DNA from: Thiomicrorhabdus marina
Lineage (GTDB): Bacteria; Pseudomonadota; Gammaproteobacteria; Thiomicrospirales; Thiomicrospiraceae
DNA length: 64,000 bases
Reading direction: 5' to 3'
NCBI RefSeq assembly: GCF_017571465.1
Contig: NZ_JAGETV010000001.1
Span: forward strand, 186,001 to 250,000
Shown piece by piece: positions 34,339 to 56,018 of this stretch. The translations under genes were made by a program, and so were the position numbers. The notes below the pieces were generated by a model, which was not told the DNA's origin, did not search any database, and worked only from the letters and a program-made list of their open reading frames with translations. The stretch's first letter is position 1; each line of letters begins with the position of its first letter.

Positions 34339-34376
34339 GTGCCCGTAGTTAAATGGATATAACGCGGCCCTCCGGA
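34339..34376 (+). tRNA. tRNA-Arg(CCG), 5' half only (left attachment junction)
   Basis: Bases 34339-34345 form a 5' acceptor strand (GTGCCCG), followed by a D arm GTTA-loop-TAAC (34348-34363), anticodon stem start and loop CTCCGGA (34370-34376) with anticodon CCG at 34372-34374. After the anticodon loop the sequence no longer pairs and no T arm follows, so the gene is interrupted exactly at the site where many tyrosine integrases cross over. The 34377-34494 stretch beyond it is AT-rich element DNA. A decayed tRNA-Arg 3' half lies at 46169. Confidence 0.75.
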
Positions 34377-34494
34377 AGCTAAGTCACCCCTTAATTAAAA
34401 ATTAAGTCACAAATAAAAAAATTAAAAAGCTGTATTAATAAGTCTTTAAACCCTTTCAAATCAATAGCTTAAGACATTACTTCCTTAAATATTA

Positions 34495-34716
34495 TTTTGT
34501 GACACAATTTGTGTTCATAAGACTTAATTTGACCTTGTTGTCACAAAATACTATATTAACTCGAGCGTAGCTTTTGATGCAAAGCTTGTGACAAAACAAC
34601 AAATAAGGTCTATTTCATTACGCGCTAGTTGGGTGTCTTAAAAGCAACTTGGTCGAAAGAACTAAGTACCTCAATAGCACTAAAACTTGAAGCTAGTTAT
34701 TCCTTGTTTTGTGACA
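34495..34716. repeat. Cluster of TTTTGTGACA sites before giant recombinase gene
   Basis: TTTTGTGACA occurs at 34495-34504 (+), 34539-34548 (inverted) and 34707-34716 (+), with partial copies at 34404-34411 (inverted) and 34586-34593. They lie between the tRNA junction and the recombinase start. Repeated short sites in both orientations at an element end are typical of recombinase or accessory-protein binding arms, or an operator (inference). The 34377-34776 gap contains no other feature I can support. Confidence 0.6.
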
Positions 34717-34776
34717 TTTCAATATCCACATTCAAAATCTGTCGCTATGTTATTACGTTGTTTGTAAGGATTTTTA

Positions 34777-37700
34777 GTGGAACACAGTCATGGCACTTTT
34801 TTAAAACTGAAGCTTCCTAAGAGCATTGGTGACTTTTCGCAAGAAGACATTGATACCTTCACAGAATTTTTCGAGATTCCACCCGCCAATCATGGCCTCT
34901 TTCCCTTAACCCAAGCGCTTGAAAATATCTCTGCGATTCTGTTTCTCTTCAATTCAGACGAATTTTCTGAATTACAAAAAATTGCTCGTGTTTTAAATAC
35001 GCATAGAAAAACACCAGAAATACTGACACAAATTTTACAGTCTACAAAAAGTTCTAGGACGGGATTTGCTGCAACTAATCCTGTGTATGAGTGTTTGATA
35101 AAAATACCTCATTCCAGTTCAGGGTCAAATATTTTCGAACTTCTAACTGCTTTACTTTTCTTAGCTCGAAAACATTCCAGGACCATTAAAGATCTATCCT
35201 TATCTAATAATGAATTTGTAGGTGTCGCTAGAGAAATTCGTACTTTAGCCGACAGAGGTAAACCATACTTTGAAACTTTGAGTGGTATTCCTGTAGAACT
35301 GAACTCATACGAATTGCTAAAAAAAGCATTAGATGAATTTGAAAAATTATTTCCTGCTATTTCGAATTCATTAAAAAAAATTATTCGTTATTTCTCGAAT
35401 GAACAACTTGTTCGTCCTGCCAAGAGTAATGGCTCTAAACCTAAACCAAGACCTGGTTCATCGAAAAACAAAAGAAAAACGCCATATAATCCTTTTGATC
35501 GTCCGATCTCACAGCCCGTCACTAGAAGACAATTACTTCCGAAAATCTCTCCCAATTCTGCTCGAAAAAACGATGATGAAGAGCTACTGATTCTGCCGGA
35601 GAATGACCAAGAAATCGTTCAACAATTAGGTGAGCTACTAGATGATACAACCCCACAAGATAAAGCTAAGGTCGATCCAAATATAGATGGCGAACCACTT
35701 TCAGTTGAAGGAATAAAAACTGCCGCCCAAGCAACGCAGCAAAAAGGCGTTATGCAGGCTCAATTTTGCAAGTATCGTTGGGAACAGCTTAGTCAAGCAG
35801 AAAACCATATCATTCAAGAACACATTCGGAGCCAAGAGTGTATTGAAGCGACTGCGGCGTTGTTAACGCTTGCTTTAGGTGCAGAACCAATTGTTTGGGG
35901 AGAATATGAATTAACCCATTCAGCTGTAGATAAAGCATATTTTGATATACCTAAAATGACGTGGGGGCATTCTATCTATGAGCATAAAAATGCTTGGCAA
36001 CCTGATGACAACTTAAAAAGTTATTTATCTGAAGTTGGTAACCAAGTGGAGCTGTTCATCCCTAAATTGATACTTCAAAGATTTCAGGAAGTTCAGATCA
36101 GTAGTGCTAATAACTTAGCTGAGTTACTAGGTTCTAGTCCTGAAAAACTTCAAGAAGTAACTGCGCAGTGGTTACTGAGTCTTTCTCCAAGAAACAGAGG
36201 ACTAACGCTCGCAAAATTGCGAAATCAACTTTACTTTACCGTTATGCAATTGACTATGGATGAAGTCGCGGCGCACTTCATTTGTGGGCAACCGACTTTT
36301 TTATTACCAATACAAGCTTTTTATACTGCATTCGATACAAAAAGTCTTAACGAGATTTATCAAAAGACATTGGCAGAGATATTTGATTCTAAAATATCGT
36401 CTCAGACCAGCGACTCCAATCAAAAGGTTGGCTCTAAACTACAAGTTGATAAGTGCTTTCATCGTGAGTTCGTTTTATCTCTAAAAGAAGTTCTCAATAA
36501 TATAGATGTAAAAGACTTTGTTGCTTATCATAATCACTTCACCATTTATACACACCAATTGTTGAGCTACGCAACTGGGCATCGTGATGTGGTTGATCCG
36601 TTTGCAAGACCACAAGACTTTATCGAAAGTATTCGATCCGTACTGGTTTTTGATAAGGAATCGGACGTAAGCCATATGGGCAGAATAAGTCCTATGGGTC
36701 GAATCGCATGGAGCCAGTTTGAAACTTATCAGAAACATCTACACCTACTTGCTATTCAACTTAGAGCGAACGGAGAGTCTTTTGCTTCTAAAATTGAACA
36801 GCTGTTGCAAGGCAAACAAACATTGCCGTTTTTATTTTTACTGGAATCAACGGACACTGGTTTGCAATCAGTCAGTATTCGAAGTTCGGTACTCAAAAGT
36901 GAAATTTCACAATGGCCTTTACCATTTAACTCTAACCGCCACTTTTTGGCGACGAATCTGCGTCCTCTGCTGAGTAATGTTGAACCCATTGATTACTTAG
37001 TCGGACATTTCCAGAATGGCACTCAGGCATTTGGCGCTGAATCGGCTTTAGCGCCATCTGACATTTCAGCCATTTTGGGTGAGAAACTGGATCATCTACT
37101 TGAGCAACTTGGGTTTGAAGTAATTGAATCTAAAATTCCTTCAAGACGAAAGAGCAATAGACATAAACTAGACGAAAAAAATCATGACGTACTGCTTGGC
37201 TATCAACAACGAGCTCAGACCAGAGCTAAAAAACTAGCAACGGCAAAAAAAATACTTACCGATGAGATCACTTCTCTTAAAAACAATATTAAGGGTGCTT
37301 ATACAAATCCCGCCCAGTTGGACAAACAAGAGTTTAATGAAGAAATTATCTGCTTGATTGATTCATCTTTGAAAGCTCTTATCGAAAACAAGAAAGTAAT
37401 CAATGTAGCAGATACAACAAGATCCTTTTACCGCCTGATAAAAAGGTTTCTTAAAACTGAATCAATCGAACTAAACTTGAATGTAAATCTAAGCAGCCTT
37501 TCTTCTGATCCTTCACCAGTAAACCCAGATACGGGCATGGATTATCATTCATTTATAAATCTTCGTGATGCATTTTTAGAGAGTACTTCAGATATATTGA
37601 ATGGACAAGATTCTATAGAATTTGTTGTTGCTTACAGTCTTTTAAATGAAATCTTTGTGGGTCATATCCATTCACCGAATTGGGTAGCAAATTACCCAAC

Positions 37701-40200
37701 AAGCTTTCGTGAAAGTCTTAGATTTGAAGATAACTTGGTATCTATTGAATTAACTGACAGTCTTAATCATACTAATAAATTTCGCTATCAATACTCTGTT
37801 GATACAAGTTTATTCTTGGTAGCCAGAAAAACGTTGATTTCTTCAGGTCGAGAATTTGAGTCTAAACAGTACAAGCACCATCTTAATGAAATCATAAAAA
37901 AACTTAAGAAAATTTACTCAGGCTTGACCATCAAGAAGCTTCTAAAAATGGCGTCGGCTGCTGATGTTATAGAGCTTCCTGGCGTAATTCGAGGAATCTA
38001 TACTGGAGTAAGTAAAAACTACTCAATTCCATTTCAGCGAAAACAGGCATTAAAGAATGCTAAAGCCATGAAAAGTATTCCTTCCACTGAACAAATGCGC
38101 CCATATGAACTCAATAAAGACTCACGATATTTTAATCCCAAAAAACCAAATTACAAAACCACAAAAGCTGTACAGAAAAGGATTAGACAGCTACTAAGAA
38201 AGCCAAATATTTCAGGACAGGAAGCCAGACAAAAAAAATTATTGATAGATGAAATAGAAGAAAAGATTGGTAATCACTGCGACATGCTTTATCCGATTTA
38301 TGGCTTTTTGCTGGAATGGGGTCTACATCAACTTAGAACGTCGAAAAAACGAAAAGCCAAATACATTAATAAGAAAGTTCATTCTAACTCTAATGCGTTG
38401 ATCGAAATTTTTAAAGATGCTGATCCTGCCATGATGACAGAAAGTGACTTTATTGATTCTTACAATAAAGTTCTGTCTTATTACCCGTCCTTTTCCGATA
38501 AATCGCAAGAGATAAAAGAGCATCTATTAGGATTGATGGAATTTCATGAATTTTTAATGACTTCTTTTGGCGTAATGGATATCGATTTTTCAGACTTAGA
38601 TATCCCAGATATTTTGGCTAGCCAAATGGTAAATGCAAATCTTATTAACTTTACTGAATATTATGAGATATTCAAATTACTCCGGAACGATAGCTATTCT
38701 TCATCGGCCAGTCAGATCAGGCAAAGCGTTGTTTTTTGCTTAGGCTTTAATTTTGGATTACGAGCCGGTGAAGTATTTTCGATTGCAATGAGAGATATCT
38801 ACATCTGCACTGAAAATCCTGAAAAGAGTACTTTAACGATACAACCTAATAAGATTGATAGACTTAAAACCGACGCATCAAAACGTAATCTTCCGTTAAC
38901 TTTATGGCTTAATGACGAAGAAATTTTGCTACTGAATGAGCTTGTTGAGTTGAGGAAAGCAGAAGGTGCGATCGATGAGGACCCGCTTGTTGGAACAAGC
39001 ACGAAATCAACCGTAGAAGATCAGGACGTTATCAAAAATAGAATCGTTCAAATAATGAGAGTGTTTACTGGTGATTCGAGCTTGAAATTTCATCATCTGA
39101 GACATTCTTTTGCTTCTTGGATGACTACTGCGCTTTTGAAGTACCCAAGCGACATTATTGATATTCTTGATAAAAAAGTACAAATGGTGCAGAGCCATTT
39201 TGATTTTTTAGGTTCACGCAAAGCACTTTTTCAACTTGCCGAACTGATGGGGCATGCACATCCATCGACGACTATTTTAAATTACATTCACATATTCGAT
39301 GGCTATCAATTCGAGGAAACCGCTTCGGTTGTAAATATTAGAAAGAACTATGAATATATATCACTGATCTCAAATGTTTCTAAACCGACTTTACGTCAAT
39401 GGGTTAAACGACATAAACCCGACAATTTGATTCATTACTGTCTAGAAAAAATATTAGAGCCGAGTTGCTTTGATTATCAGTATGAAGATTATGTATATGA
39501 GATTCCTTCCTGTAAACCACTTCAAAGCAGCCTGAAATTTGAGCAAGTTGACTGGTTCATCTCAAGGTTTGAAAACATTAAAAATCATCAAAATATTGCA
39601 ACGGTATTTTCTTGCACTTTGAGTGATGTTGAGGTTTTTATACAAATCTTAAAGTCCATTATCGAAGGGTCAGGATATGTTCCACGGCCATTAATATCTT
39701 TATTTGCTGATACGGAAGAACAACGTCAAACCATAGAAAAGTCATTCAATTTACAAAACTTACCAAGGCAAAATATTGATCGGGCATGGATTCATAATTT
39801 TGAGAGTTTATTGAGCAGTGAGACGGTAGAGTTATCTGAATACCTCAAGATTTGGTCTCGATATGTTTATCCAGATGAAACGTGGTGGAAATTTGAAAAA
39901 CCGGAACAGTTTTCGGCTTTTGTTAAGTTTTTACAATCTTCCGGCATTCAGCAAAAAGAAATCGTTCTGAAGAGTCAAAGTGGAAATATCGACTTAGATA
40001 TTTCCAGCAACATTCATCAAGAAGCATATCCTAAAAGCCATAAATCTAAAGCATCAAAGCGATACTTTAATCTGAACTTATCACCTGTCGACGCAGAACT
40101 ATCCGTGGTTAAACGAAATGGTAAGTCAGTGGTCCGAACAATTAACTATTATTTCTTCTTGGCCGCTTTGATAGCTAATTTTATGCAGAAAAGATTTTAA
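34777..40200 (+). CDS. Giant tyrosine-recombinase-like protein (1807 aa)
   Basis: Starts at GTG 34777 with AAGGA 6 bases upstream. About 1300 residues of unrecognised, mostly helical sequence precede a tyrosine-recombinase catalytic domain. A basic low-complexity linker is near 208-240. The catalytic set is complete: R1329 (GLRAGEV), a basic turn (KRNLPL), H1439-x-x-R1442 (HHLRHSF), H1493 (MGHAH) and Y1503 (NYIHIF). Some 300 further residues of unknown fold follow. Normal integrases are 350-450 residues. The gene is AT-rich relative to the flanks and sits beside a split tRNA, so it is probably the recombinase of a mobile island. It may be akin to large recombinase-like proteins such as GmtY of Gamma-Mobile-Trio elements; that comparison is from memory and unverified. 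Confidence 0.8.
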   Translation: MEHSHGTFLKLKLPKSIGDFSQEDIDTFTEFFEIPPANHGLFPLTQALENISAILFLFNSDEFSELQKIARVLNTHRKTPEILTQILQSTKSSRTGFAATNPVYECLIKIPHSSSGSNIFELLTALLFLARKHSRTIKDLSLSNNEFVGVAREIRTLADRGKPYFETLSGIPVELNSYELLKKALDEFEKLFPAISNSLKKIIRYFSNEQLVRPAKSNGSKPKPRPGSSKNKRKTPYNPFDRPISQPVTRRQLLPKISPNSARKNDDEELLILPENDQEIVQQLGELLDDTTPQDKAKVDPNIDGEPLSVEGIKTAAQATQQKGVMQAQFCKYRWEQLSQAENHIIQEHIRSQECIEATAALLTLALGAEPIVWGEYELTHSAVDKAYFDIPKMTWGHSIYEHKNAWQPDDNLKSYLSEVGNQVELFIPKLILQRFQEVQISSANNLAELLGSSPEKLQEVTAQWLLSLSPRNRGLTLAKLRNQLYFTVMQLTMDEVAAHFICGQPTFLLPIQAFYTAFDTKSLNEIYQKTLAEIFDSKISSQTSDSNQKVGSKLQVDKCFHREFVLSLKEVLNNIDVKDFVAYHNHFTIYTHQLLSYATGHRDVVDPFARPQDFIESIRSVLVFDKESDVSHMGRISPMGRIAWSQFETYQKHLHLLAIQLRANGESFASKIEQLLQGKQTLPFLFLLESTDTGLQSVSIRSSVLKSEISQWPLPFNSNRHFLATNLRPLLSNVEPIDYLVGHFQNGTQAFGAESALAPSDISAILGEKLDHLLEQLGFEVIESKIPSRRKSNRHKLDEKNHDVLLGYQQRAQTRAKKLATAKKILTDEITSLKNNIKGAYTNPAQLDKQEFNEEIICLIDSSLKALIENKKVINVADTTRSFYRLIKRFLKTESIELNLNVNLSSLSSDPSPVNPDTGMDYHSFINLRDAFLESTSDILNGQDSIEFVVAYSLLNEIFVGHIHSPNWVANYPTSFRESLRFEDNLVSIELTDSLNHTNKFRYQYSVDTSLFLVARKTLISSGREFESKQYKHHLNEIIKKLKKIYSGLTIKKLLKMASAADVIELPGVIRGIYTGVSKNYSIPFQRKQALKNAKAMKSIPSTEQMRPYELNKDSRYFNPKKPNYKTTKAVQKRIRQLLRKPNISGQEARQKKLLIDEIEEKIGNHCDMLYPIYGFLLEWGLHQLRTSKKRKAKYINKKVHSNSNALIEIFKDADPAMMTESDFIDSYNKVLSYYPSFSDKSQEIKEHLLGLMEFHEFLMTSFGVMDIDFSDLDIPDILASQMVNANLINFTEYYEIFKLLRNDSYSSSASQIRQSVVFCLGFNFGLRAGEVFSIAMRDIYICTENPEKSTLTIQPNKIDRLKTDASKRNLPLTLWLNDEEILLLNELVELRKAEGAIDEDPLVGTSTKSTVEDQDVIKNRIVQIMRVFTGDSSLKFHHLRHSFASWMTTALLKYPSDIIDILDKKVQMVQSHFDFLGSRKALFQLAELMGHAHPSTTILNYIHIFDGYQFEETASVVNIRKNYEYISLISNVSKPTLRQWVKRHKPDNLIHYCLEKILEPSCFDYQYEDYVYEIPSCKPLQSSLKFEQVDWFISRFENIKNHQNIATVFSCTLSDVEVFIQILKSIIEGSGYVPRPLISLFADTEEQRQTIEKSFNLQNLPRQNIDRAWIHNFESLLSSETVELSEYLKIWSRYVYPDETWWKFEKPEQFSAFVKFLQSSGIQQKEIVLKSQSGNIDLDISSNIHQEAYPKSHKSKASKRYFNLNLSPVDAELSVVKRNGKSVVRTINYYFFLAALIANFMQKRF

Positions 40201-41185
40201 TTCTCGACGTAATATATTTTGAAATTTCATCTAAGAGCTCTAATTTGTGATCCTTGTTGGGCATTTTTGCTATTTTCGACATGTTTAGTGAAAGCATTTC
40301 TATTTCTTCTTCAAATTCAATGTCGAGATAGTCTTTGAAAGTTTTACTTTTATCTGCCGTCGGATTATAGGTCACCTTCACAGGTATATTCCAAACCGCA
40401 GAAACTTTTATTAAGTTGAGTTGATCATCATTTTGTACGTAAAATTTGAATTGCCTCCCATCAGACGTCACTCCACCAAACCTCTTGAATTTTGCTTCAT
40501 CGGAAAACTCTTTTACCCATAATTTTAAATCACAATTATTGAATTCCGATTTGAGCGAATTACCTTGTGAATCATCAGTATCTGCAAGATCAATTTGAGG
40601 GTTTGTAGGCTTGCTCGGTTGATCTTCTGTTTCAAAGTCATCCTCAACACTTTCATTTTCAGAAGGCGTCTCAGTATCTGGTAAATTTTGGTTGAGTGGG
40701 TTTTGAACTTTCTCACCTTCAACTTTGTCATCAGACAAAATTACACTATCATCAGGGGCTGGATTAATTAGCTCGTCTTCTTCTGAGAGTTTAGCACCAT
40801 TGTTATTCGATTCAGCATTCGAAGGCGGCTTTGGAATTAAATCTTCGTTTTTGCTTTTTTTTGTCGGTTCTTCCAACTCTTGCAATTCATTAATTTTTTC
40901 AAAATGCTTAATTAATTCGGCTCTCGATAGAACGCCCAATCCTTCAATCCAGTCATTTTTACTTTGGGCATAAATCTGAATTTTTGGATTTGGGCTATCA
41001 GATTCGGCCACCGTGAAATGAAAATTGCTAAAATTTACGTTTTTAAAAACTCGTTCAAAAGAATTTTTTAAGCTCGTAATTTCTTCATCGAGTTTATGTA
41101 CTTGTGTTATGTCGAAAAGATTTTTTCCCCTTATTTCAAGAGAAAAACCCTCAAGCCGATCTTCAAAAATTAATCTCAAAAACAT
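40181..41185 (-). CDS. Acidic two-domain protein, unknown, convergent with giant recombinase
   Basis: 334 residues. An N-terminal globular part (about 1-105, ending ...RAELIKHFEKINEL) is followed by a long acidic, Pro/Asn/Ser-rich linker (about 110-215) and a C-terminal domain (LKLWVKEFSDEAKFKRFGGVTSDGRQFKFYVQNDDQLNLIKVSAVWNIPVKVTYNP). It overlaps the recombinase gene tail-to-tail by 20 bases, so the two are probably a conserved pair. No homology recognised. Acidic disordered linkers can mimic DNA, but no function is claimed. Confidence 0.65.
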   Translation of the reverse strand: MFLRLIFEDRLEGFSLEIRGKNLFDITQVHKLDEEITSLKNSFERVFKNVNFSNFHFTVAESDSPNPKIQIYAQSKNDWIEGLGVLSRAELIKHFEKINELQELEEPTKKSKNEDLIPKPPSNAESNNNGAKLSEEDELINPAPDDSVILSDDKVEGEKVQNPLNQNLPDTETPSENESVEDDFETEDQPSKPTNPQIDLADTDDSQGNSLKSEFNNCDLKLWVKEFSDEAKFKRFGGVTSDGRQFKFYVQNDDQLNLIKVSAVWNIPVKVTYNPTADKSKTFKDYLDIEFEEEIEMLSLNMSKIAKMPNKDHKLELLDEISKYITSRIKIFSA

Positions 41186-41566
41186 TTTAGGACTCCTTTA
41201 AAAACTCAAAACCGTATGTGTTTTTCTAACTACCCAACTAAGAGCTGCTTGTGCTGAAATGCGCATTTTTTTGCAATTCATCAATAAATAGGTGTTTTGC
41301 ATGCGTTTTAAACTCAGAATTTGATTTTCTGATAAAAAAATTTTGCGAAGATTTTTATTAATGCAGGTAGATGCTAAATCGAAAAAAGTAAAACCCACTG
41401 CTAAAGTCGTTCAAAAATTGAGTAATTAGTTTTTTATTTGATTTTTAGCTGTTAGGAACTTAAATTTTTGGAGTAATAAAACGTTTAAGAAGAATGGTGT
41501 AAGCTGTAATTCCGAGATCGATTGGCAGGCTAGGCTGACGAAATTATTATCAGCTTTGCCTTTTGG
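41186..41566. other. Intergenic region, no feature assigned
   Basis: AT-rich 380 bases between the acidic protein gene and the HD-domain gene. It has short open frames without ribosome-binding sites. I looked for a tRNA 3' half marking an element end and did not find one. Confidence 0.5.
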
Positions 41567-42493
41567 TTAGTTTAAGCGACAGATCTTTTGCTGATTTGCC
41601 CCCGCTTGGTAGAAGGCAAATTGATAGCTTTCTGGTTTGTCCTTAAATGAAACTTTTCGAAGATTGCAGTTAGTGCTCATCTGGTCAGCAAGTTTGATGA
41701 TGTAGCCACCCATGTATAAACAAAACCCTTGTTTCTCTGTCCATGAAAGCAAATACACCAAAGCATCATGACCATCTTTCCATTGAGTCGCAAACTCTGC
41801 CAAGGGTATTGCCAACGCCATTAAGTTCAAAGAGTCATGCGCCACAGAATAACCAAGATTGGTGTAACTCGACTCATCTAAGGTAAAGACTTTTCCTGCA
41901 TCATGAAACAAGGCTGCGAGTAAGGTCAGTTCTCTCTCATTCAAGCTCATACCGGCCGGTAAGTTTTTGTAGGCGGTTTGCAAGCATTCTAAAGAATGTT
42001 CAAGCAAACCACTTGGCACTGAATGATGGTGCGATTTACTGGCCGGTACGGCGACAAACTTTTTCATAAATTCGGTTTGACGAAAACAATTCCAAAAAAA
42101 CGTTTTGGCAGCTTCTCCAGTAAGAAAGTTGCCAAAACGGATTAATCGCTCTAGCAATTCAAACTGGTAACAACTTTGATACACGGGCCATAGTTCTTTA
42201 AAGCTCAAAGGTGCTTGAAGAATCCGCCAGTCGATCACTTGAGATTGCCAGTCAAATTTTAACCATGCAAAAATTGTATGATCTTCTTGAAGTGTCAACT
42301 GTTGGAACTGAATAAAAAACGCTTCAGTTACCTGAAACACAACCTGTTCGCTTGATTCTAAAAGAATCAAACAGCTGTATTGCGTGGGTTGATTTGGCTG
42401 TGCATTAACAGACACTTTCATTAAGCTGCCAAGAATTGTTTTATGCTGACCATTTTGCATACTGGCTGGCGCCATCATGGGTAAATTAATCAT
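41567..42493 (-). CDS. HD-domain protein related to TraI_2/MobH relaxase N-domain
   Basis: 308 residues. N-terminal OB-like part (LMKVSVNAQPNQPTQYSCLILLES) and a metal-dependent HD hydrolase core: HHHSVPSGLLEHSLECL near residue 155 and LLAALFHDAGKVFTL near residue 190, with AHDSL after it. The HHH plus HD pattern is that of the TraI_2 (MobH) relaxase domain, which in short form is often found beside integrases. It overlaps the upstream integrase stop by four bases and is the last gene of the xis-int-int-HD operon. A role in element transfer or nucleotide hydrolysis is inferred. Confidence 0.7.
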   Translation of the reverse strand: MINLPMMAPASMQNGQHKTILGSLMKVSVNAQPNQPTQYSCLILLESSEQVVFQVTEAFFIQFQQLTLQEDHTIFAWLKFDWQSQVIDWRILQAPLSFKELWPVYQSCYQFELLERLIRFGNFLTGEAAKTFFWNCFRQTEFMKKFVAVPASKSHHHSVPSGLLEHSLECLQTAYKNLPAGMSLNERELTLLAALFHDAGKVFTLDESSYTNLGYSVAHDSLNLMALAIPLAEFATQWKDGHDALVYLLSWTEKQGFCLYMGGYIIKLADQMSTNCNLRKVSFKDKPESYQFAFYQAGANQQKICRLN

Positions 42494-43722
42494 TCTGACA
42501 CCTCCTGATGGTCAATCGATTGCAATGAGTCGATGGGATTGTTGTCAGGCGATTGATACGCTCGTTGCAACAAACTATCAACCGATAGGTTCTTCTGGAA
42601 TGTTAGGCTTGGAACAAACTCTCCATAAGTTCGGATTACCTCACCACGGTATGTCGCCCCCAGTTCTTTGGCGACAACCGTCGGATTTATTCCTTGATTT
42701 AACCAAATCACTGCCGAGGTATGCCGAATATGCACTGGACTTCGGTAAGCAATCCCTGTCTTTTTGCATACGGTTTTCCATGCTCGGTTACAGAAGTTAG
42801 AGTTGTTTACGGGAGTGTCTTTACCTTGTGTTTTAAAAACAGTGGAATCCAAATGATCAAACGTCTGCTCATAATGCTCTACGAGCGCTTCATGCACTCT
42901 TAAGCTCATATGAACCACACGATTCGAATCTTCTCCTTTAATGGGACGAAACCCGACTCGCTCACAATAAACTTCGACCACATGAATGACACCAGCTTGC
43001 AAATTAACCGATTTCCAACGTAGGCCGTTGATCTCTCGAGTACGCAACCCGGTATAAAACCAAACGAGAATATAGGTTCGGTAGTTTGGGTTAATCGCAT
43101 TAATAATCTGCTCGACTTCGTCTTCTGTGAAAGGCCAAATCTTTTGCGGCACTTTCAAAAAAGGAATATCGATGAATGGCGAGTCAAACTGTAACTGCTT
43201 TGACGCATCATCAATAATTAAACGCAAAATCTGCAAGCTACGATTCACGGTGGCAGGTTTAATCAGCTCGCCATTTTCAGGGTTTACCATCTTCAATAAA
43301 GCTGCACGGTACTCCAAAATATCCTCACGCTTGATTGATGCCAGTTCCGTCTTTTCCCAATACGGACGAATTCGCTTTTGGTAATAATTCAGATAGCCTG
43401 AAAGTGAATGTGGTCGGAGCTTATTAGCCTGTTGTTGAAACCAAATCTCTGCAAAGGCGTCCAAAGTAGGACTTGCTTGATTTTCCTGCATGGAATACTC
43501 AAGCTGAATCTTTTGAATTTTGCCAAGCAGTCTACTCTCTGGAAAACATGTTCTGTAATCCAAGCAGTCATTTTCAATATCAGCAAGAATCTGTTTCAAC
43601 ACCTTATCCACTTTTTTACGGTTGGTTTTAGTGTCTTTGAGAGATGTCTGTTCCCGCAAGCGAACACCGTGCAGAGTAAAGTCGAGGATCAGCTTGCCAT
43701 TTCGAGTGGTTACCTTAGCCAT
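42490..43722 (-). CDS. Tyrosine integrase paralogue with altered active site
   Basis: 410 residues with the DUF3596-type arm-binding N-domain (AKVTTRNGKLILDFTLHGVRLREQTSLKDTKTNR), core-binding domain (LRPHSLSGYLNYYQKRIRPYWEK) and catalytic domain: GLRTREINGL (Arg I), SPVHIRHTSA (Arg II) and Tyr in RTYGEF. The usual LGH/MGH box reads ELGATYRGE, so the conserved His is replaced by Ala. AAGGAGGTG lies 6 bases before the ATG. It overlaps the sister integrase by eight bases. It may be an inactive partner or a directionality subunit (inference). Confidence 0.82.
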   Translation of the reverse strand: MAKVTTRNGKLILDFTLHGVRLREQTSLKDTKTNRKKVDKVLKQILADIENDCLDYRTCFPESRLLGKIQKIQLEYSMQENQASPTLDAFAEIWFQQQANKLRPHSLSGYLNYYQKRIRPYWEKTELASIKREDILEYRAALLKMVNPENGELIKPATVNRSLQILRLIIDDASKQLQFDSPFIDIPFLKVPQKIWPFTEDEVEQIINAINPNYRTYILVWFYTGLRTREINGLRWKSVNLQAGVIHVVEVYCERVGFRPIKGEDSNRVVHMSLRVHEALVEHYEQTFDHLDSTVFKTQGKDTPVNNSNFCNRAWKTVCKKTGIAYRSPVHIRHTSAVIWLNQGINPTVVAKELGATYRGEVIRTYGEFVPSLTFQKNLSVDSLLQRAYQSPDNNPIDSLQSIDHQEVSE

Positions 43723-45010
43723 GGTTCACCTCCTTGTCATTCAAGACAAAATCAGTTTCTAACATTGCCTCGTTAAAAGTTGCTTCACTCTCACCAATCA
43801 TTGCCGGTAACTGTGGCGTGATTGAATTCGCGACTGATGTTTTCTCTTTCATCAATGATTCAAAAGCCGAACCATCTTGGCGCGTCAAGTTCGGTACAAA
43901 ACGCCCATAGGTGGTAAAAATCATTTCTGTTGAGGTGTGTCCCATCTGACGTGCCACCCAGGTAGCATTTTCACCGGCCGCTAACAGCAGGCAGCAATAA
44001 GTATGTCTGGACTGATAAGGGCTTCGATACTCAATACCCAATTGTTTCAACACGGTCTTCCAAGCCCGGCAACGGAAATTATTACTGTGCACAGGGCCGC
44101 TAGTTTCAGGTTTGGTAAATACCGTCTGTTCATCATTGCCAAAATAGTGCAAATCAAAATGGGTTTTCAATGCCTCATAAACCAATGCCGACATCTGCAC
44201 ATCACGTTGTGATGAGTCATTTTTGGTGTACTGAAAACCACTTTGCTCAGAATAGGTTTCTCGAACTTTGATCACTCTGTTATCAAAGTCCACATTTTTC
44301 CAACGCAGACCATTAACCTCACCTGTACGCAAGCCTGTGAAAAAACGCACCAAGACATAAATGCGAAACTCTGGTTGGATATGGTCAATAATCTGATGAA
44401 CTTCTTCCAAATTAAAAGGATGAATTTCCTTTTTGGGCTCCTTGAGCATTTGGATATTTCGATAAGGTGAAGTAAACTCATACTCGTCAGCGGCTTCATT
44501 AATAATCATTCTGAAAATTTTCAGAGTCTTGTTAACCGTGGCAGGGTCTAAACGATTTCCAGTGTTTTCGTTCGTATGTTTGGCGATGTCTGAACGAAAC
44601 TCTAAAATGTCTTGCCGTGTTATCCCGCTGACCTCTTTTCCTTCCCAGAAAGGCAGAATCCGCTTCTCGTAGTAATTTCGATACCCTGATGCAGTGCTTG
44701 AGCGCCAAGTTGGCTCCATGTTTTTGAACCACTTCTCAGCGACTTCTTCAAAAGACGGTGTAGCACTTCCCTGAATACGACGACGCTTCAAATCCATCTG
44801 CTCGATTTTGTCAGCCGTTTTGCTGTTTGGAAAATACTCACGATACTCAAAAATCCCCAACTCAATTTTGGCTAGAATTTTCTTCAACACCATATTGAGC
44901 TTATTGCGATTTTCCTTCGTGTCTTCAAGTATGGTTTGCTCGCGACAACGAATCCCCATGTAAGTAAAGTCGAATAACAATTTCCCATTTCGTTCTGCCA
45001 CTCTAGCCAT
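43715..45010 (-). CDS. Tyrosine integrase (DUF3596 arm domain)
   Basis: 431 residues, paralogous over its whole length to the next gene. Arm-binding domain ARVAERNGKLLFDFTYMGIRCREQTILEDTKENR; core-binding WRSSTASGYRNYYEKRILPFWEG; catalytic Arg I GLRTGEVNGL, SPYQSRHTYC box (this subfamily has YQxRH), MGHTSTEMI His and Tyr in TTYGRF. All catalytic positions are kept. Start 45010 is preceded by AAGGAGGTG at 7 bases, identical to the signal of the sister gene; the ATG at 45019 overlaps that signal. Likely catalyses integration and excision at the tRNA-Arg site. Confidence 0.88.
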   Translation of the reverse strand: MARVAERNGKLLFDFTYMGIRCREQTILEDTKENRNKLNMVLKKILAKIELGIFEYREYFPNSKTADKIEQMDLKRRRIQGSATPSFEEVAEKWFKNMEPTWRSSTASGYRNYYEKRILPFWEGKEVSGITRQDILEFRSDIAKHTNENTGNRLDPATVNKTLKIFRMIINEAADEYEFTSPYRNIQMLKEPKKEIHPFNLEEVHQIIDHIQPEFRIYVLVRFFTGLRTGEVNGLRWKNVDFDNRVIKVRETYSEQSGFQYTKNDSSQRDVQMSALVYEALKTHFDLHYFGNDEQTVFTKPETSGPVHSNNFRCRAWKTVLKQLGIEYRSPYQSRHTYCCLLLAAGENATWVARQMGHTSTEMIFTTYGRFVPNLTRQDGSAFESLMKEKTSVANSITPQLPAMIGESEATFNEAMLETDFVLNDKEVNHG

Positions 45011-45236
45011 AGCAAACACCTCCTTGCGCTAACGGAATCGCAAAACCAGTTTCAACGGTTTGATACATATCCTCTTCAATATGCTCCCAAATAAACAAAA
45101 TACGACGCTGCCCGAATGGACGAATGTAATGACGACCCTCAATCAGCACCTTATCCATTAAGGTCTGACGAATAGTTCTTGGATTGTACTTTAGGCGTTC
45201 ACCTAACTCTTCAGTGCTTAAATATGTTAGACTCAT
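45003..45236 (-). CDS. Excisionase-like DNA-binding protein (Xis)
   Basis: 77 residues with a winged-helix excisionase-type start (LTYLSTEELGERLKYNPRTIRQTLMDKVLIEGRHYIRPFGQRRILFIWEHI). Helix-turn-helix followed by a wing with RPFGQRR is typical of small Xis/AlpA-like factors. AAGGAG upstream; overlaps the integrase by eight bases. First gene of the operon, divergent from an XRE regulator. Confidence 0.78.
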   Translation of the reverse strand: MSLTYLSTEELGERLKYNPRTIRQTLMDKVLIEGRHYIRPFGQRRILFIWEHIEEDMYQTVETGFAIPLAQGGVCYG

Positions 45237-45273
45237 GTTTCAGCTCCTTTATGTAGCTTGAGAATTAATTAAT

Positions 45274-45289
45274 GTTAAATATATTTAAC
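45274..45289. promoter_or_regulatory. Palindromic operator between xis and XRE regulator
   Basis: Perfect 16-base palindrome GTTAAATATATTTAAC in the 128-base divergent spacer, surrounded by related AATTAAT and CATTAAC half sites. Probable binding site of the adjacent XRE repressor. Confidence 0.55.
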
Positions 45290-45364
45290 TTTCATTAACT
45301 ATATTACACATAAATTCATTTCTCGCAACCTCTTTTGTCGTAAATTTTTTAAAAAAGGTGAAAA

Positions 45365-45592
45365 ATGATTCGCTTCAAGCTAAAAGAACTGATTGCTGAG
45401 AAGGAGTTTCAGGAAAAACGTAGGGTTACAGTCAAGGAAATATCGGATGCAACCGACATTAATCGTGTGACGATTTCAAAGTTGCTTAATAACAAGGACT
45501 ACAACACCACCTTGGAAAAGGTCGAGAAGTTATGTGATTTCTTTGATTGTGAAATTTGTGATTTGATTGAACGAGTCCAAGATCAAAAATAA
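45365..45592 (+). CDS. XRE-family (Cro/C1) helix-turn-helix regulator
   Basis: 75 residues: VTVKEISDATDINRVTISKLLNNKDYNTTLEKVEKLCDFFDCEICDLIE matches the Cro/C1 HTH_26 type found in small phage and element repressors. Divergent from the xis-int operon with a palindrome between them, so it is the likely switch controlling excision. The next 190 bases to the antitoxin remnant carry no supported feature. Confidence 0.82.
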   Translation: MIRFKLKELIAEKEFQEKRRVTVKEISDATDINRVTISKLLNNKDYNTTLEKVEKLCDFFDCEICDLIERVQDQK

Positions 45593-45783
45593 CGTCAGAA
45601 AGCAATTCGCTGAACTAGGTTTGCCCGGTGGAATGCTAGATAGGTTTCATGTTTGCTATCAATCCATCGTAATCTGAGTTCAGGATGGATGCCTAAAATG
45701 AGTAAATCAGAAAGATTGAGTTCGGTTGAAAATAGGATTTTTCCAGTTGTATCAAAGCTGAGCTATTACAGATTAGGAATTTA

Positions 45784-46164
45784 TCAAAAAGAGCATCGAG
45801 GTTTGCGGAGAGCAAAAGTCCGCCGGAATATGCTCTGAATATTAGAAGTCTGTAAAACTTTTAAAGTCGGTTTTGATTTGAACTGTGTTGTCACTGTTTT
45901 TTGATAGGCGTGATTGTCAATTGCTTGTTCAATACCCGCTTTCTCTTTCAACCACTCAAAAACATCAGGAGCATACCAAGCAGCACGCAACAGTTTATCC
46001 ATGCCTTCTGACTGCATCACATCATTATTTTCATATTTAGAAAACGCCACAGGGCCACCGCCAAAAATGGCAGCAGCTTGTTTCTGATCAATGCCCCAAG
46101 CTTCTCGCATACGACGAATTTCTTCAGCGGACAGTAGACTATCGACATGTTTTTTAAATATCAC
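45784..46164 (-). pseudogene. MqsA/YgiT-type antitoxin, 5'-truncated at element boundary
   Basis: C-terminal HTH part of an MqsA-family antitoxin: KKHVDSLLSAEEIRRMREAWGIDQKQAAAIFGGGPVAFSKYENNDVMQSEGMDKLLR, followed by about 50 variable residues. The N-terminal zinc-binding domain (two CxxC motifs) and any toxin gene are missing. The frame can be read back to an ATG at 46221, but those first 19 codons are the antisense of a tRNA remnant. The gene was evidently cut there by integration or recombination. Confidence 0.7.
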
Positions 46165-46168
46165 AAGG

Positions 46169-46220
46169 CCTCCGGAGGGGAAGGCCGGGGGGGCGACTCC
46201 TCTCCCTCTCGGGTGCGCCA
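46169..46220 (+). tRNA. Decayed tRNA-Arg 3' half (right attachment junction)
   Basis: Starts with CCTCCGGA, identical to the anticodon-loop segment at 34369-34376, and ends CCTCT-CGGGTGC-G-CCA (46205-46220), a T-stem 3' strand, acceptor 3' strand, discriminator and CCA. Between them CGACTCCTCT resembles a T loop and stem, followed by a 6-base tandem duplication (CCTCTC twice, 46199-46210), so it cannot fold as a tRNA. Its acceptor strand would pair best with GCACCCG, not the GTGCCCG on the left, suggesting the remnant came with the element. Confidence 0.6.
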
Positions 46221-46985: not shown

Positions 46986-48254
46986 ATGAAAACGAATCCA
47001 CTTAACACCACATTAAATAAGATGACTGTGGTTGTCGCTTTTTGCTTGTACGCACAATCTGCTCTCTCTATTGAGCCGATGAGCGATATGACACTTAAAC
47101 AAGCAATACAGAACACATTGGAAAAGAATCCAGAATTAAAAAAATATCCATTTGATATTCAATATCAACAAGCGCTTTCTCAGCAAGCTGAAATAAAACC
47201 TTTACCAGAGCTTTCCATCCAGGCAGAAGAACTTGTAGGTACTGGTGACTATTCATTAGCAGATCAAACTCAGCTAACACTGACTTTGAGTCAAAACTAT
47301 GAGATGGGAGACAAACTTCAACACCGTTTAGCTCTTTCTCAATCAAAAGAAGACAGTAAACGTCTAGAATTTGAACTTGCCAAGATAGATACGGTTGCAG
47401 AAACCAGTCGACGTTTCTATGAAGTTATCTATCTTCAGAATTTATCTGGTCTCGTGAGTGAAAATTTAGTTAAACAGAAAAGTCTTCTGCAAAAGATAGA
47501 TCGATTGGCTCAAGCGGGGATTGCAAACCCGGTTGATCAAAATAGGATTCATTTTCTAATTAAACAATCCAATCATCAACTGCTTGCAATTTCAAAACAG
47601 CAAAACTTGGCAAAAGTTCGTTTGAGCGCCATGTGGCAAAGTGATACTGAGATTAATCGGGTAATTGGCTCATTCAAGAACAGTTCAGTTATTCCTTCAA
47701 AAAAAGAATTGCTGGATCAGATTGAAAACTCTCCCGCTCAACTTCACTATTTAGCCCTTCAAAGAGAGGCTGATTACAACCTTAAACTGGAAAAAGCATA
47801 TGGTGTCCAAGACATTACCTATAGCTTTGGTATAGGCCACAAGGCTGCAGAAGATGCACAGACTCTCAATTTTGGCATATCCATGCCATTGGCTTTTGGC
47901 AATCCAAACCAAGGACGTATAGAGGCAGCAAAAATCAAGCTTCAGCAAAGCCAATCTCTTCAAACTGAGAGTACTCAAAAACTTAAATTAGAAGTGATTG
48001 AATATTGGCATTCATTGCAGAGCATGCAGAGCTTATTGGAAGACATTAAAAGTCAATTACTCCCCGAATCTAAAAAATTAATTTCCACCAGCTTAGCGGC
48101 TTATCAACGTGGCTCCACTTCTTTATTACAAGTGATGGAAGCTCAACAAATCTGGTTTGAACTCAAAACCCAGCAGCTAGAGCTTTATAAGCAAAGACAG
48201 CTGACATTACTAGAACTTGAAAGACTGATTGGCATAAAGCCCGCTGCCGAATAA
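46986..48254 (+). CDS. czcC: Outer-membrane efflux channel CzcC/TolC-like
   Basis: 422-residue outer-membrane factor with signal peptide (to ALSIEP) and two OEP repeats rich in long coiled-coil helices (MTLKQAIQNTLEKNPELKKY; AAKIKLQQSQSLQTESTQKLKLEVIEYWHSLQSM; SLAAYQRGSTSLLQVMEAQQIWFELKTQQLELYKQRQLTLLELERLIG). Forms the exit duct for the downstream RND pump. No lipobox cysteine, unlike the second TolC-like protein at 54573. Eleven bases separate it from czcB. Confidence 0.88.
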   Translation: MKTNPLNTTLNKMTVVVAFCLYAQSALSIEPMSDMTLKQAIQNTLEKNPELKKYPFDIQYQQALSQQAEIKPLPELSIQAEELVGTGDYSLADQTQLTLTLSQNYEMGDKLQHRLALSQSKEDSKRLEFELAKIDTVAETSRRFYEVIYLQNLSGLVSENLVKQKSLLQKIDRLAQAGIANPVDQNRIHFLIKQSNHQLLAISKQQNLAKVRLSAMWQSDTEINRVIGSFKNSSVIPSKKELLDQIENSPAQLHYLALQREADYNLKLEKAYGVQDITYSFGIGHKAAEDAQTLNFGISMPLAFGNPNQGRIEAAKIKLQQSQSLQTESTQKLKLEVIEYWHSLQSMQSLLEDIKSQLLPESKKLISTSLAAYQRGSTSLLQVMEAQQIWFELKTQQLELYKQRQLTLLELERLIGIKPAAE

Positions 48255-48265
48255 AAGGAATTAAC

Positions 48266-49558
48266 ATGAATTTGAAATCAATATTATTAGCAGTCTCTTT
48301 TGCGACCGCTGGCGCAACAGGTTATGCACTATATGAGCAGCTTCACCATCACGATGAAGGCGCAGGACACCAAAGTGAAGCCCATGATGATCATGGTGAT
48401 ACGCTCGGTCATGACCATGGGCCTGAAACACAAGAACAAAAAGGCTTGCATGGAGGCAAGCTATTATCTGCTGACTCTTTTTCACTAGAGTTGACTATTT
48501 ATGAAACCGGCATTCCTCCTGAAATGCGTGTGTATGCCTATGAAAATGGTCAACCTGTCGATTTAACCAAGGTTGATGTTTACATCACATTAGATCGTCT
48601 CGGTGGTAAGCAAGACGTTTTAACTTTCAAACCTGAAGATGATTATCTTTTGGGAAGCCAGAGTATTGCTGAACCTCACTCATACAGCGTAACGGTTTCT
48701 GCGCAATACGCCGGCAACTTCCACCAATGGCAATATGAAAGCCATGAAGGTCGTGCTTATATATCAGACCGTTTATTTGCTGAATCAGGTATGCAAACAG
48801 AGGTTGTTGGACCACAAACCATTAAACAACACAGAGAACTTTTTGGAATGATTGTGGTGCCTCAAGATCAGAAAACAAAAGTGTTTGCACCTTACCCTAG
48901 TAAAATTCAAAAAGTACATGTAAAGCTTGGGGATGACGTTCAAAAAGGGCAAGTATTAGCCACTTTGCAAAACATCAAAACATTGCAGACATACACGGTA
49001 AAAAGCAGCGCCAATGGCCAGATCAGCAACCTATGGTCAAATACTGGCGAGATTGTTCAAAACGATCCATTGATGCAAGTGTCCAATCTAGACAAGGTAT
49101 GGGTTGAACTATCCGCTTTCCCGAAAGACATCGCGCAGTTGCGCGAAGGACAAAATGTCATGGTTGAATCTTTGGATAATTCTCATCAAGTTTCAAGCAC
49201 TTTGGACTATCTATCACCGACGATGACTGATGGTCATATCGCACGCGCTAGAACGGTGATTGATAACGCTTCAGGTTACTGGAAACCTGGGATGCATATC
49301 AAAGCGCAAGTAACTGTTGGTGAAAAACAGGTTCCTCTTGCGATTAATCAAAAAGGGCTGCAGAGCTTTAGAGGCATGCCCGTTGTATTTGCAAAATACC
49401 GTAATGACTATGAAGTGCGAATGCTTGAACTTGGTGAAGAAGATGAGAACTACATCGAAGTACTGGGTGGAATAGAACCCGGCACTGAATATGCCACTGA
49501 AAATAGCTTTTTAGTCAAAGCGGACGCGTTGAAAGACGGCGCGTCTCATGACCACTAA
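48266..49558 (+). CDS. czcB: RND efflux periplasmic adaptor CzcB, His-rich
   Basis: 430-residue membrane-fusion protein. N-terminal membrane anchor (ILLAVSFATAGATGYALYEQ) followed by a His/Asp-rich stretch (HHHDEGAGHQ, HDDHGDTLGHDHG) likely to bind metal, a CzcB-like N-domain, then the barrel-sandwich (VFAPYPSKIQKVHVKLGDDVQKGQVLATL; VKSSANGQISNLW) and beta-barrel domains (LDKVWVELSAFPKDIAQLREGQNVMVES). Connects CzcA to CzcC. AAGGAATTAAC precedes the ATG. Confidence 0.9.
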   Translation: MNLKSILLAVSFATAGATGYALYEQLHHHDEGAGHQSEAHDDHGDTLGHDHGPETQEQKGLHGGKLLSADSFSLELTIYETGIPPEMRVYAYENGQPVDLTKVDVYITLDRLGGKQDVLTFKPEDDYLLGSQSIAEPHSYSVTVSAQYAGNFHQWQYESHEGRAYISDRLFAESGMQTEVVGPQTIKQHRELFGMIVVPQDQKTKVFAPYPSKIQKVHVKLGDDVQKGQVLATLQNIKTLQTYTVKSSANGQISNLWSNTGEIVQNDPLMQVSNLDKVWVELSAFPKDIAQLREGQNVMVESLDNSHQVSSTLDYLSPTMTDGHIARARTVIDNASGYWKPGMHIKAQVTVGEKQVPLAINQKGLQSFRGMPVVFAKYRNDYEVRMLELGEEDENYIEVLGGIEPGTEYATENSFLVKADALKDGASHDH

Positions 49559-49570
49559 GGAGCGTTTGAA

Positions 49571-52705: not shown

Positions 52706-52726
52706 GAAGAATGCTTTGCATGACTG

Positions 52727-52764
52727 ATGCTCATCTTGACTCACACGGTTGAATGAGCATTTTT
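52727..52764 (+). terminator. Rho-independent terminator after czcA
   Basis: Stem ATGCTCAT (52727-52734) / ATGAGCAT (52753-52760), 18-base loop, then TTTTT. Confidence 0.65.
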
Positions 52765-52869
52765 GGACATCATTTGTGCAGTGAACACTGTTTTTTGCCA
52801 ATTTTCGTGGCAAAGATTGATTATTTTGTTGGTGTTTCCAATTTTTGGACACACCAACTCCTTGGTTTA

Positions 52870-53635: not shown

Positions 53636-53743
53636 CTAAAACTTACCGGCCGGTCAAAACTTTATTTAAGACTCAATCCTTGAATAACCTTGCAAATTAC
53701 ATAGAATGATAATGTAAAGTATTATTCGTTAACGGTATTTCAA

Positions 53744-54238: not shown

Positions 54239-54285
54239 ATTTTGATCCCATCTCAAAATTTTTAATCCAATTTTTTGGAGGCACT

Positions 54286-56000: not shown

Positions 56001-56018
56001 CCAAATTAGGAGAAATTT

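Follow-up and report, generated by a model that had tools for sequence, protein, structure and literature searches.

Several described mobile elements encode more than one protein with a tyrosine-recombinase (TR) fold. For the strand-biased circularizing integrative elements (SE), the available portion of the description gives a single operon in which IntA is an ordinary TR, Tfp has the TR fold but lacks the catalytic residues, and IntB is a large TR (PMC10214605). GInts, genomic islands with three integrases, carry ginABCD and, as far as the available text goes, have three TR-fold proteins at one island end, with GinC being incomplete (PMC5385486). TnpA, TnpB and TnpC of Tn554 comprise, in the available account, an ordinary TR, a large TR and a small protein, without a counterpart of the TR-like protein (PMC10214605). 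The word tRNA does not occur in the main text of either the SE or the GInt paper (PMC10214605, PMC5385486). Little is understood of how SE, GInt, RIT and Tn554 elements move, or of what their dead recombinase-like member does. The target of Tn554 is not known to be a tRNA. Judging from the available descriptions, Gamma-Mobile-Trio (GMT) is a mobile element of Gammaproteobacteria named for its trio. This trio includes a TR. tRNA genes are general hotspots for islands, and arm-type integrases are known tRNA integrases. In islands of the Islander type a displaced tRNA fragment marks an end; in the available part of the survey anticodon-centred sites are common (2083 of 3919), and 5' fragments are rarer (159 of 3919) (PMC4383910).

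The 64-kb stretch of Thiomicrorhabdus marina DNA analysed here (the window) contains an open reading frame with a GTG start that encodes 1807 amino acids (34777-40200, + strand). We consider it rather probable that this protein joins in one chain a TR-like protein (A), which probably does not cut, and an active large TR (B), and that it belongs to the machinery by which a genomic island integrates. The separate A proteins of other loci match residues ~1-790, and the separate B proteins residues ~790-1807. The first-pass annotation had proposed a complete R-HxxR-H-Y set in this frame, situated after about 1300 residues of unknown sequence. The set is indeed complete (R1329, K1364, H1439xxR1442, H1493 and Y1503, read off the sequence and aligned with eight relatives), and Pfam Phage_integrase matches residues 1298-1450 (E = 3.6e-8), so that the B half shows the R-K-HxxR-H-Y site in a TR fold that characterizes the superfamily. 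The residues that precede it do not deserve to be called unknown, because part of them forms a second TR-like domain and the protein is a fusion of two. Beyond the TR domain, scanning the proteins against Pfam, NCBIfam and PHROGs gave no convincing family match. The same layout is present in an 1800-aa homologue from another genome, and therefore the giant fused layout is more than chance. A scan of genome contigs with the whole 1807-aa protein confirmed no relative, and blastn of E. coli genomes with the gene's first 4000 bases gave no match.

The core-binding and catalytic domains of the B type occupy residues 1169-1511 (38281-39309, + strand), including Y1503. A structure search with the B model returned 24 rows at E <= 0.001, headed by XerH (3.3e-5); the model aligned with Cre (1pvp) over 177 residues (Z 15.8, rmsd 2.8) and with XerA over 246 residues (Z 17.6, rmsd 15.1). 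The N-terminal part of B (residues ~790-1110) contains conserved motifs. We suspect that this part, which the structural search barely covered, is a further degenerate TR-like fold.

The TR-like domain of A lies at residues ~560-780 (36454-37116, + strand). Its site reads R603, K627, N718xxR721, H744 and F752; there is no tyrosine, F752 standing where the catalytic one is expected, and an Asn replaces the first His. Both by sequence match and by predicted structure, the A half is a TR fold. The A profile matches XerA (4a8e; E = 9.2e-5), and when residues 1-800 were modelled with AlphaFold (mean pLDDT 64.9), Foldseek placed the integron integrase 2a3v at the top (probability 1.00, E = 2.7e-3), with rows 1-18 all being TRs, no row reaching E 0.001 and low TM-scores. 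The comparison of the A profile with the B profiles by hhalign was not significant, and thus A and B are linked only via known TR structures. Judged by its residues, the A of the 1807-aa protein is probably non-cutting; "dead" is not universal among A proteins. A tyrosine is found at the aligned position in loci L009, L011 and L087, which include the two nearest relatives of the 1807-aa protein, and there it follows the His by 8 residues, not 10.

Outside the 1807-aa protein, A and B are mostly separate adjacent genes, B being directly 3' of A, or fused to it, in almost all loci where the contig goes on. In a first set of loci A is followed by B on one strand, or fused to it, the exceptions (L089, L092, L094 and L095) being cut by contig ends; one copy of the duplicated pair L085/L086 has a gap of 411 bp, and the B match of L142 is weak (E = 3e-5). 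In a second set of 26 loci, at least seven of which are apparently the same records as in the first, A precedes B in 23 and the remaining three stop at contig ends. Further fused ORFs of 1758-1941 codons are present in seven loci, in addition to one of 1278. In a tree of 55 rows, all 9 fused rows fall inside a set of 17 rows (98/94), together with unfused proteins; long branches were flagged. That A is fused to B in several loci suggests that both act at one place in one complex. A was present in other phyla as well as in 14 of the 369 sampled genomes of the class and, assuming that all 58 relatives were among the genomes sampled, in 10 of these 58; its matches in 7 of the 12 positive genomes of the order arise by construction, since those genomes supplied rows of the A profile. 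On plasmids, tblastn with the B protein of genome G009 gave no match at E 1e-5. A viral origin is unsupported: tblastn at E 0.01 found no phage record, and two IMG/VR scans by pattern, able to detect only close relatives, gave no confirmed match.

The recombinase gene starts 400 bp inside an insertion that splits a native tRNA-Arg(CCG) at the anticodon loop. The 5' half constitutes the left junction (34339-34376, + strand) and ends in the anticodon-loop core CTCCGGA (34370-34376), 7 bp that are common to both junctions. The 3' half is found 32.2 kb away, at ~66580 in window coordinates and outside the window (L022, 2580-2623). Once joined, the two halves fold in ARAGORN as a 75-nt tRNA-Arg(ccg), and the program sees no tRNA at either junction. 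ARAGORN and Rfam report no intact tRNA in the window, and the idea that the junction lacks a tRNA could be ruled out, because the tRNA is split. At the left end (34377-34776), GCTAAGTCA adjoins the core, and four of the six copies of TTGTGACA present on both strands of the window are concentrated there (34497, 34586 and 34709 on the + strand; 34539 on the - strand); the right end has GCTACGTCA in inverted orientation. The location at a tRNA junction and the clustering of candidate binding-like sites, both of which had been proposed from the letters alone, are therefore borne out. The further suggestion, a distinct mobile-element machinery, stands as far as mobile machinery at a tRNA junction is concerned, with family databases silent beyond the TR domain; it has to give way where the giant protein is concerned, which is a fusion of what are usually two genes.

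Classical tRNA islands restore the tRNA that they split, as Islander islands do in the available part of their description (PMC4383910), whereas the insertion in the window does not. A different, intact tRNA-Arg(CCG) lies on the insert, 173 bp inside the right junction. No other tRNA-Arg(CCG)-like match in the genome was better than E 0.18; the anticodon was read for part of the genome's 42 tRNA hits. A host tRNA that is not reconstructed, together with an intact tRNA on the inserted element, is also what is seen in phage tRNA-dependent lysogeny; there, the elements are phages with a phage-encoded tyrosine integrase, whereas here it is an island with a giant fused TR. The degenerate 3' half of another tRNA-Arg(CCG) (46170-46220, + strand) may mark an internal island boundary. 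This third remnant and the inverted intact tRNA suggest that the window is composite and reflects more than one event. Transposase-like ORFs are also present in the element.

In 16 of 51 A loci, the 1.5 kb upstream of A contain one half of a tRNA that is broken at the anticodon loop; in the other 35 no half was found there, with a library of only 73 tRNA sequences. The 51 loci are those that remained after setting aside 15 duplicate or fragment entries (L086, L093, L139, L191-L194, L196, L198, L201, L202, L208, L212, L213 and L216) and, from the resulting 61, 10 loci with less than 1 kb upstream of A, including L124 (His 3' half). No half was found within this distance in, among others, the Acinetobacter plasmids, L014 (G033), L127, L129, L131-L133 and L136. 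In the same loci, the density of halves was 22-fold higher upstream of A (16 in 76,169 b) than elsewhere (8 in 853,866 b; p = 1.6e-12). Ten of the 16 positive loci come from the window's own family, seven of them at tRNA-Phe, so that the positives are not independent. The 5' halves lie on the operon strand in 8 of 8 cases and the 3' halves on the opposite strand in 7 of 8, which fits insertion at one core. An intact tRNA-Phe is present at the far island end in G003, G009, G030, G033 and G070; in G033 the displaced 5' half was not found upstream of A. The likeliest role of A-B is thus a part in integration at the anticodon loops of tRNAs.

The first-pass annotation regarded the convergent 334-aa protein (40181-41185, - strand) as a partner of the recombinase. 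The gene does overlap the giant frame, by 20 nt, and the protein does have an acidic linker (residues 96-215, with 33 D/E versus 10 K/R); it has no family match. A convergent gene of 268-334 aa is located 3' of 5 of the 9 fused genes and of one split one. Only the proteins of G003 and G008 among these are detectably related, and the 334-aa protein is not. It matches the profile of a three-sequence alignment (A1) by construction, since it was forced into it; BLAST and hhalign lend no support, and tblastn on plasmids gave no match. A conserved obligate partner is thus weakly supported and, stated in that form, ruled out: what is kept is the position alone.

Further downstream lie two integrases with an Arm-DNA-bind_2 domain, of 410 aa (42490-43722) and 434 aa (43715-45019), both on the - strand; the latter is 49% identical to int436, located at the island end in G009. 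They are flanked by a gene for a 308-aa HD-domain protein (TraI_2/HD; 41567-42493, - strand), by eye similar to a 315-aa gene at the far end of the tRNA-Phe islands, and by a 75-aa ORF (45365-45592, + strand), read from the sequence as helix-turn-helix-like and by eye similar to the small ORF adjoining int436 in G009. An arm-type integrase is located at the opposite end from A-B in several islands.

A further reading, which we hold less likely than not, makes these loci a distinct class of tRNA-targeting island. In it the A-B pair, sometimes fused into a built-in heterodimer, and an arm-type integrase on opposite sides of attP would act jointly on many different tRNA genes, whichever way these are oriented, at their quasi-symmetric anticodon loop, with some hosts becoming dependent on the island tRNA. 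Under the more probable reading, that of a fused A-B in the integration machinery of an island, B would cut and join at the core in the anticodon loop, the two arms of which are by nature close to symmetric, and A might fill B's partner position or a second site, setting architecture or direction without cutting. The conventional arm-type integrase of the same island may help or compete. In the tRNA-Phe islands, the far end would provide the promoter and the 5' half, and the tRNA would thereby be rebuilt; in the window, the foreign tRNA-Arg(CCG) presumably replaces the unrebuilt native one, as in phage tRNA-dependent lysogeny. If so, tRNA-dependent integration would no longer be confined to phages but extend to genomic islands. 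A good share of the loci have one structural target in common, the anticodon loop, although the tRNAs differ, and this common target offers a defined substrate for testing the role of the dead partner.

It is also conceivable, though rather unlikely, that integration at the tRNA is really the work of the arm-type integrase (int436 family; in the window, 410 and 434 aa), with A-B either a passenger or active at some other stage, for example in copy-out replication or maintenance. Arm-type integrases are, after all, the familiar tRNA integrases; in the Phe islands int436 stands next to the far-end intact tRNA-Phe, and it lies 0.5-0.8 kb from an intact tRNA in seven further loci (L236, L237, L240, L243, L244, L245 and L246), L247 having merely a partial tRNA match, at 2.6 kb. 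The conventional integrase at the far end of the tRNA-Phe islands could recombine alone, which counts against a role for A-B. However, A-B is found at the opposite att end, beside the displaced half, and its large size and conservation would argue against a passenger. Moreover, 8 of 58 genomes have int436 (E <= 1e-60), and each of these also has A-B; A accompanies the int436-type integrase in 10 of 13 genomes, and other PF12167 integrases in 0 of 10 (Fisher p = 0.0004), a contrast that is partly by construction, because integrases near A-B served to build the int436-type profile and the score cut was set after viewing the scores; the G218 match in this survey is a 29-position fragment. We hold it improbable that the fusion and the split tRNA are relics of a decayed, rearranged island, the fused gene having no present mobility function. 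The composite structure with its transposase-like ORFs, the degenerate remnant at 46170 and the lack of a rebuilt tRNA would fit such decay, yet a frame of 1807 codons with intact catalytic residues, and long intact fused frames in several other loci, would not be expected from it.

That A-B belongs to a multi-recombinase class already described (SE, GInt or Gamma-Mobile-Trio) seems possible but doubtful. SE and GInt, and possibly GMT, are the closest kinds, likened through their published descriptions. The A/B/int436 set has the same three roles as in SE, where, in the available text, an ordinary TR is likewise accompanied by a TR-fold protein without catalytic residues directly before the large TR gene, and inverted motifs occur at the ends (PMC10214605). 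In the window, the protein just before the large TR has both the Tyr and the first His replaced, the tyrosine of L009, L011 and L087 being the exception to this likeness. Nevertheless, instead of an intA-tfp-intB-srap operon at one end, the window has the fused A-B, the convergent gene and the arm-type integrases on the other strand; the ordinary TR is outside the operon, at the far end or downstream. SE termini are imperfect inverted repeats of 13-19 bp with a 6-bp footprint; here the inverted GCTAAGTCA/GCTACGTCA motifs around the core CTCCGGA are of 9 bp. The target here is a tRNA anticodon loop, the word tRNA being absent from the SE and GInt main texts. The host range is also wider: A extends to Nitrospirota, Geobacteraceae, Mariprofundus and Sulfuricurvum, whereas tfp-srap blocks were confined to Gammaproteobacteria in the available part of the SE survey. 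GInts resemble the A-B set in the available text in having three TR-fold proteins, one of them incomplete, and differ in inserting, for instance, at ssb genes and in their four-gene operon, every gene of which recombination requires (PMC5385486); no ginA-ginB-ginC-ginD operon is present in the window. Tn554 shares with the A-B set one ordinary and one large TR along with a small protein, and has no counterpart of A in the available account (PMC10214605). Trios of a small ORF, A and B, which also speak for membership in a described class, are found on Vibrio, Acinetobacter and Sulfuricurvum plasmids. In unfused operons, the product of the small gene 5' of A is weakly ParB_N-like in two of nine cases scanned, with E = 0.0085 and 0.02, neither of which reaches the curated cut-off.

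The two convergent open reading frames (ORFs) proposed in the first-pass annotation were confirmed: one of 1807 residues with a GTG start at 34777-40200 on the plus strand, and one of 334 residues at 40181-41185 on the minus strand, overlapping by 20 nt. The complete tyrosine recombinase (TR) catalytic set claimed for the large protein is also present (R1329, K1364, H1439xxR1442, H1493 and Y1503), and Pfam detected Phage_integrase at residues 1298-1450 (E 3.6e-8) and nothing else above cut-off. The integrase part of the original description thus stands, but the preceding ~1300 residues are not simply unknown: a BLASTP comparison of 14 large ORFs, two of which had no match, showed that window residues ~1-790 correspond elsewhere to a separate TR-like gene, A, and residues ~790-1807 to the next gene, B.

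The A half of the window protein has a box I arginine (R603), K627, an NxxRH motif (N718, R721, H722) and GH744. In all nine aligned A proteins Asn replaces the first His of HxxR, and the residue aligned with the expected nucleophilic Tyr is F, Y, Y, W, W, W, H, F and F. Tyr occupies this position in genomes G003 and G008, the nearest relatives of the window, and also in locus L087; it lies 8 residues past the His, versus 10 in B. Judged from these residues, there is good support for a catalytically dead A in the window protein and most relatives, and less for G003, G008 and L087. The B proteins of G003 and G008 carry R or K in place of the first His. An A profile matched XerA in the PDB (E 9.2e-5), and Foldseek with an AlphaFold model of residues 1-800 (17 relatives; mean pLDDT 64.9, best at ~560-780) returned an integron integrase as top match (probability 1.00, E 2.7e-3); the first 18 rows were all TRs, with low TM-scores and none below E 0.001. 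B residues 1169-1511 gave structural matches to XerA, XerH, IntI and Cre. Conserved motifs also occur in the N-terminal part of B (residues ~790-1110), which hints at a possible further degenerate recombinase-like fold. In G008 the A-B gene (L011 9007-14414) is divided into 1110 and 712 residues at window residue ~1160, which is not where A and B meet in other genomes; this is either a frameshift or an alternative split.

Homologues of the 1807-residue protein were found in 7 of the 58 genomes searched, its own included, as an 1800-residue ORF (G003), as two ORFs of 1110 and 712 residues (G008), or as adjacent gene pairs. With the A profile (E<=1e-5), 12/62 genomes of the order, 14/369 of the class and 22/398 of the phylum were positive, own genome included in each set; 7 of the 12 order positives had supplied profile rows. 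In the 49 loci read, B follows A on the same strand or is fused to it, apart from contig ends (L089, L092, L094, L095) and a 411-bp gap in a duplicated copy (L085, L086); in L142, B was detected at E 3e-5 only. A scan of named genomes gave 26 A loci, at least 7 of which appear to repeat loci already read, with B behind A in 23 and a contig end in the remaining three; they include Hydrogenovibrio, Thiomicrospira, Mariprofundus, Citrifermentans, Geobacter, Nitrospirae, Marinomonas, Halomonas, Sideroxydans, Propionivibrio, Desulfobulbaceae and Sandarakinorhabdus. Fused ORFs number nine (the window, L009, L087, L099, L102, L103, L135, L141 and L142), and G282 has an open frame of 1495 codons that may add a tenth. 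Many unfused operons have an extra small gene directly ahead of A, mostly of 146-226 codons, and two of nine such proteins scanned gave a weak ParB_N-like match. The gene-A-B trio also occurs on plasmids of Acinetobacter, Vibrio (L249) and Sulfuricurvum (L250), the first gene of the last encoding ~340 residues. The L249 and L250 trios are annotated as hypothetical protein or integrase plus recombinase.

The tRNA junction noted beside the A-B gene was borne out: positions 34339-34376 are the 5' half of a tRNA-Arg(CCG), with the anticodon-loop sequence CTCCGGA at its end. Its 3' counterpart is found 32,210 bp farther along, beyond the window (L022 2580-2623), and when joined the two form a tRNA-Arg(ccg) fold; this tRNA is intact in 27 of 29 loci read from other genomes. 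Neither junction of the window insertion reconstitutes the tRNA. A second and distinct tRNA-Arg(CCG), complete and encoded on the opposite strand, lies inside the right end and has a TATAAT-type promoter of its own. It shares 73% identity with the native tRNA and as much as 97% with that of a relative. The ends next to the core bear inverted GCTAAGTCA/GCTACGTCA. The region is composite: a third tRNA-Arg(CCG) is represented by a degenerate 3' half at 46170, so the A-B island proper may run from 34370 to 46170 and be followed by a second segment that reaches 66580.

Such tRNA halves recur at other A loci. The 5' half of tRNA-Phe(GAA) precedes A in seven genomes (G003, G008, G009, G030, G034, G067 and G070), other loci have, upstream of A and on the opposite strand, the 3' half of an Arg, Val, Gly or His tRNA, and in one case an Asn 3' half is upstream on the same strand. 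Of 51 loci that are non-redundant and have 1 kb or more of upstream sequence, 16 have a tRNA half within 1.5 kb upstream of A, 10 of them from the window's family, and 35 have none by the same test. This corresponds to 16 halves in 76,169 b upstream versus 8 in the other 853,866 b of these loci (hypergeometric p 1.6e-12). A pattern for the tRNA-Phe 3' end matched once in each of 12 genomes; the match in G003, G009, G030, G033 and G070 belongs to an intact tRNA-Phe that has tRNA-Leu after it and is located downstream of A-B, on the same strand. The tRNA-Phe islands provide both the promoter and the 5' half of the rebuilt gene, displacing the original half; no displaced half was found in G033, and those of G009 and G030 have lost bases. 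The latter two (L012 8853-8890; L016 14833-14878) share the same anticodon-stem base loss, as if inherited from one insertion. In G067, two near-identical A-B copies (L085, L086) are separated by ~19 kb. One copy faces a further A-B operon head to head, with a tRNA-Phe 5' half between them; we read this arrangement as tandem or nested islands.

The best supported reading is that A-B belongs to the machinery by which islands integrate at tRNA anticodon loops. B would supply catalysis, and A would act as a TR-like subunit, non-cutting in the window; as the two are fused, they may be arranged 1:1 within one complex. A serious alternative is that integration is carried out by int436, a 436-residue arm-type integrase (PF12167) of the far island end. 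The far ends of G003, G009 and G030 contain, ahead of the intact tRNA-Phe, repeated sites and a promoter as well as what look by eye like an HD-like gene of 315 codons, this integrase and a small HTH-like ORF. The far end of G033 also has this integrase, and that of G070 has an integrase of 467 residues, with no such HD gene in its ORF list. In the window, two int436-type integrases and an HD protein directly follow the 334-residue gene. At E<=1e-60, int436 was found in 8 of 58 genomes, all eight carrying A-B; the A-positive genomes among the 58 are these plus G034 and G045 (at least 10 from the matches listed; p 2.3e-8 taking 10/58). Across the class, PF12167 occurs in 24/369 genomes, 10 of which are among the 14 that carry A (one of them, G218, by a fragment). 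A is present in 10/13 genomes with an int436-type integrase versus 0/10 with other PF12167 integrases, G218 omitted, a contrast that is partly by construction because integrases close to A-B served to build the profile and the scores were already known when the cut was chosen.

Known multi-recombinase elements offer points of comparison. SE elements are described with IntA, Tfp (a TR fold without the catalytic set), the large IntB and Srap (PMC10214605), and GInts with GinA, GinB, the incomplete GinC and GinD (PMC5385486); the word tRNA is absent from the main texts of both. The Islander account lists 5' fragments in 159 of 3919 islands and 2083 anticodon-centred sites (PMC4383910), and the 2021 TR classification names RIT and Tn554 subgroups (PMC8138268). 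The presumed replacement tRNA of the window follows the same logic as phage tRNA-dependent lysogeny, as outlined in PMC10865867. No description of the A-B pair was found in a literature search that reached few subscription papers.

The 334-residue protein had been proposed as a convergent acidic partner. Of its features, only two are established: where it lies, and an acidic linker with 33 D/E and 10 K/R over residues 96-215. It has no Pfam match above cut-off and no family from NCBIfam or PHROGs, and by BLAST it matches none of the other convergent proteins. Convergent genes of 268-334 codons lie behind five of the nine fused genes and behind the split gene of G008, and among these proteins only those of G003 and G008 are related to each other by BLAST (E 6e-6). 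The cargo at 46986-57431 encodes an outer membrane efflux protein, an AcrB-family pump and a multicopper oxidase (Pfam), and includes a DDE transposase fragment at 52870-53253 (Pfam). By eye, the G030 and G070 tRNA-Phe islands also seem to carry copper-type genes, and a transposase-like ORF lies close to the right end (L022 1064-2011).
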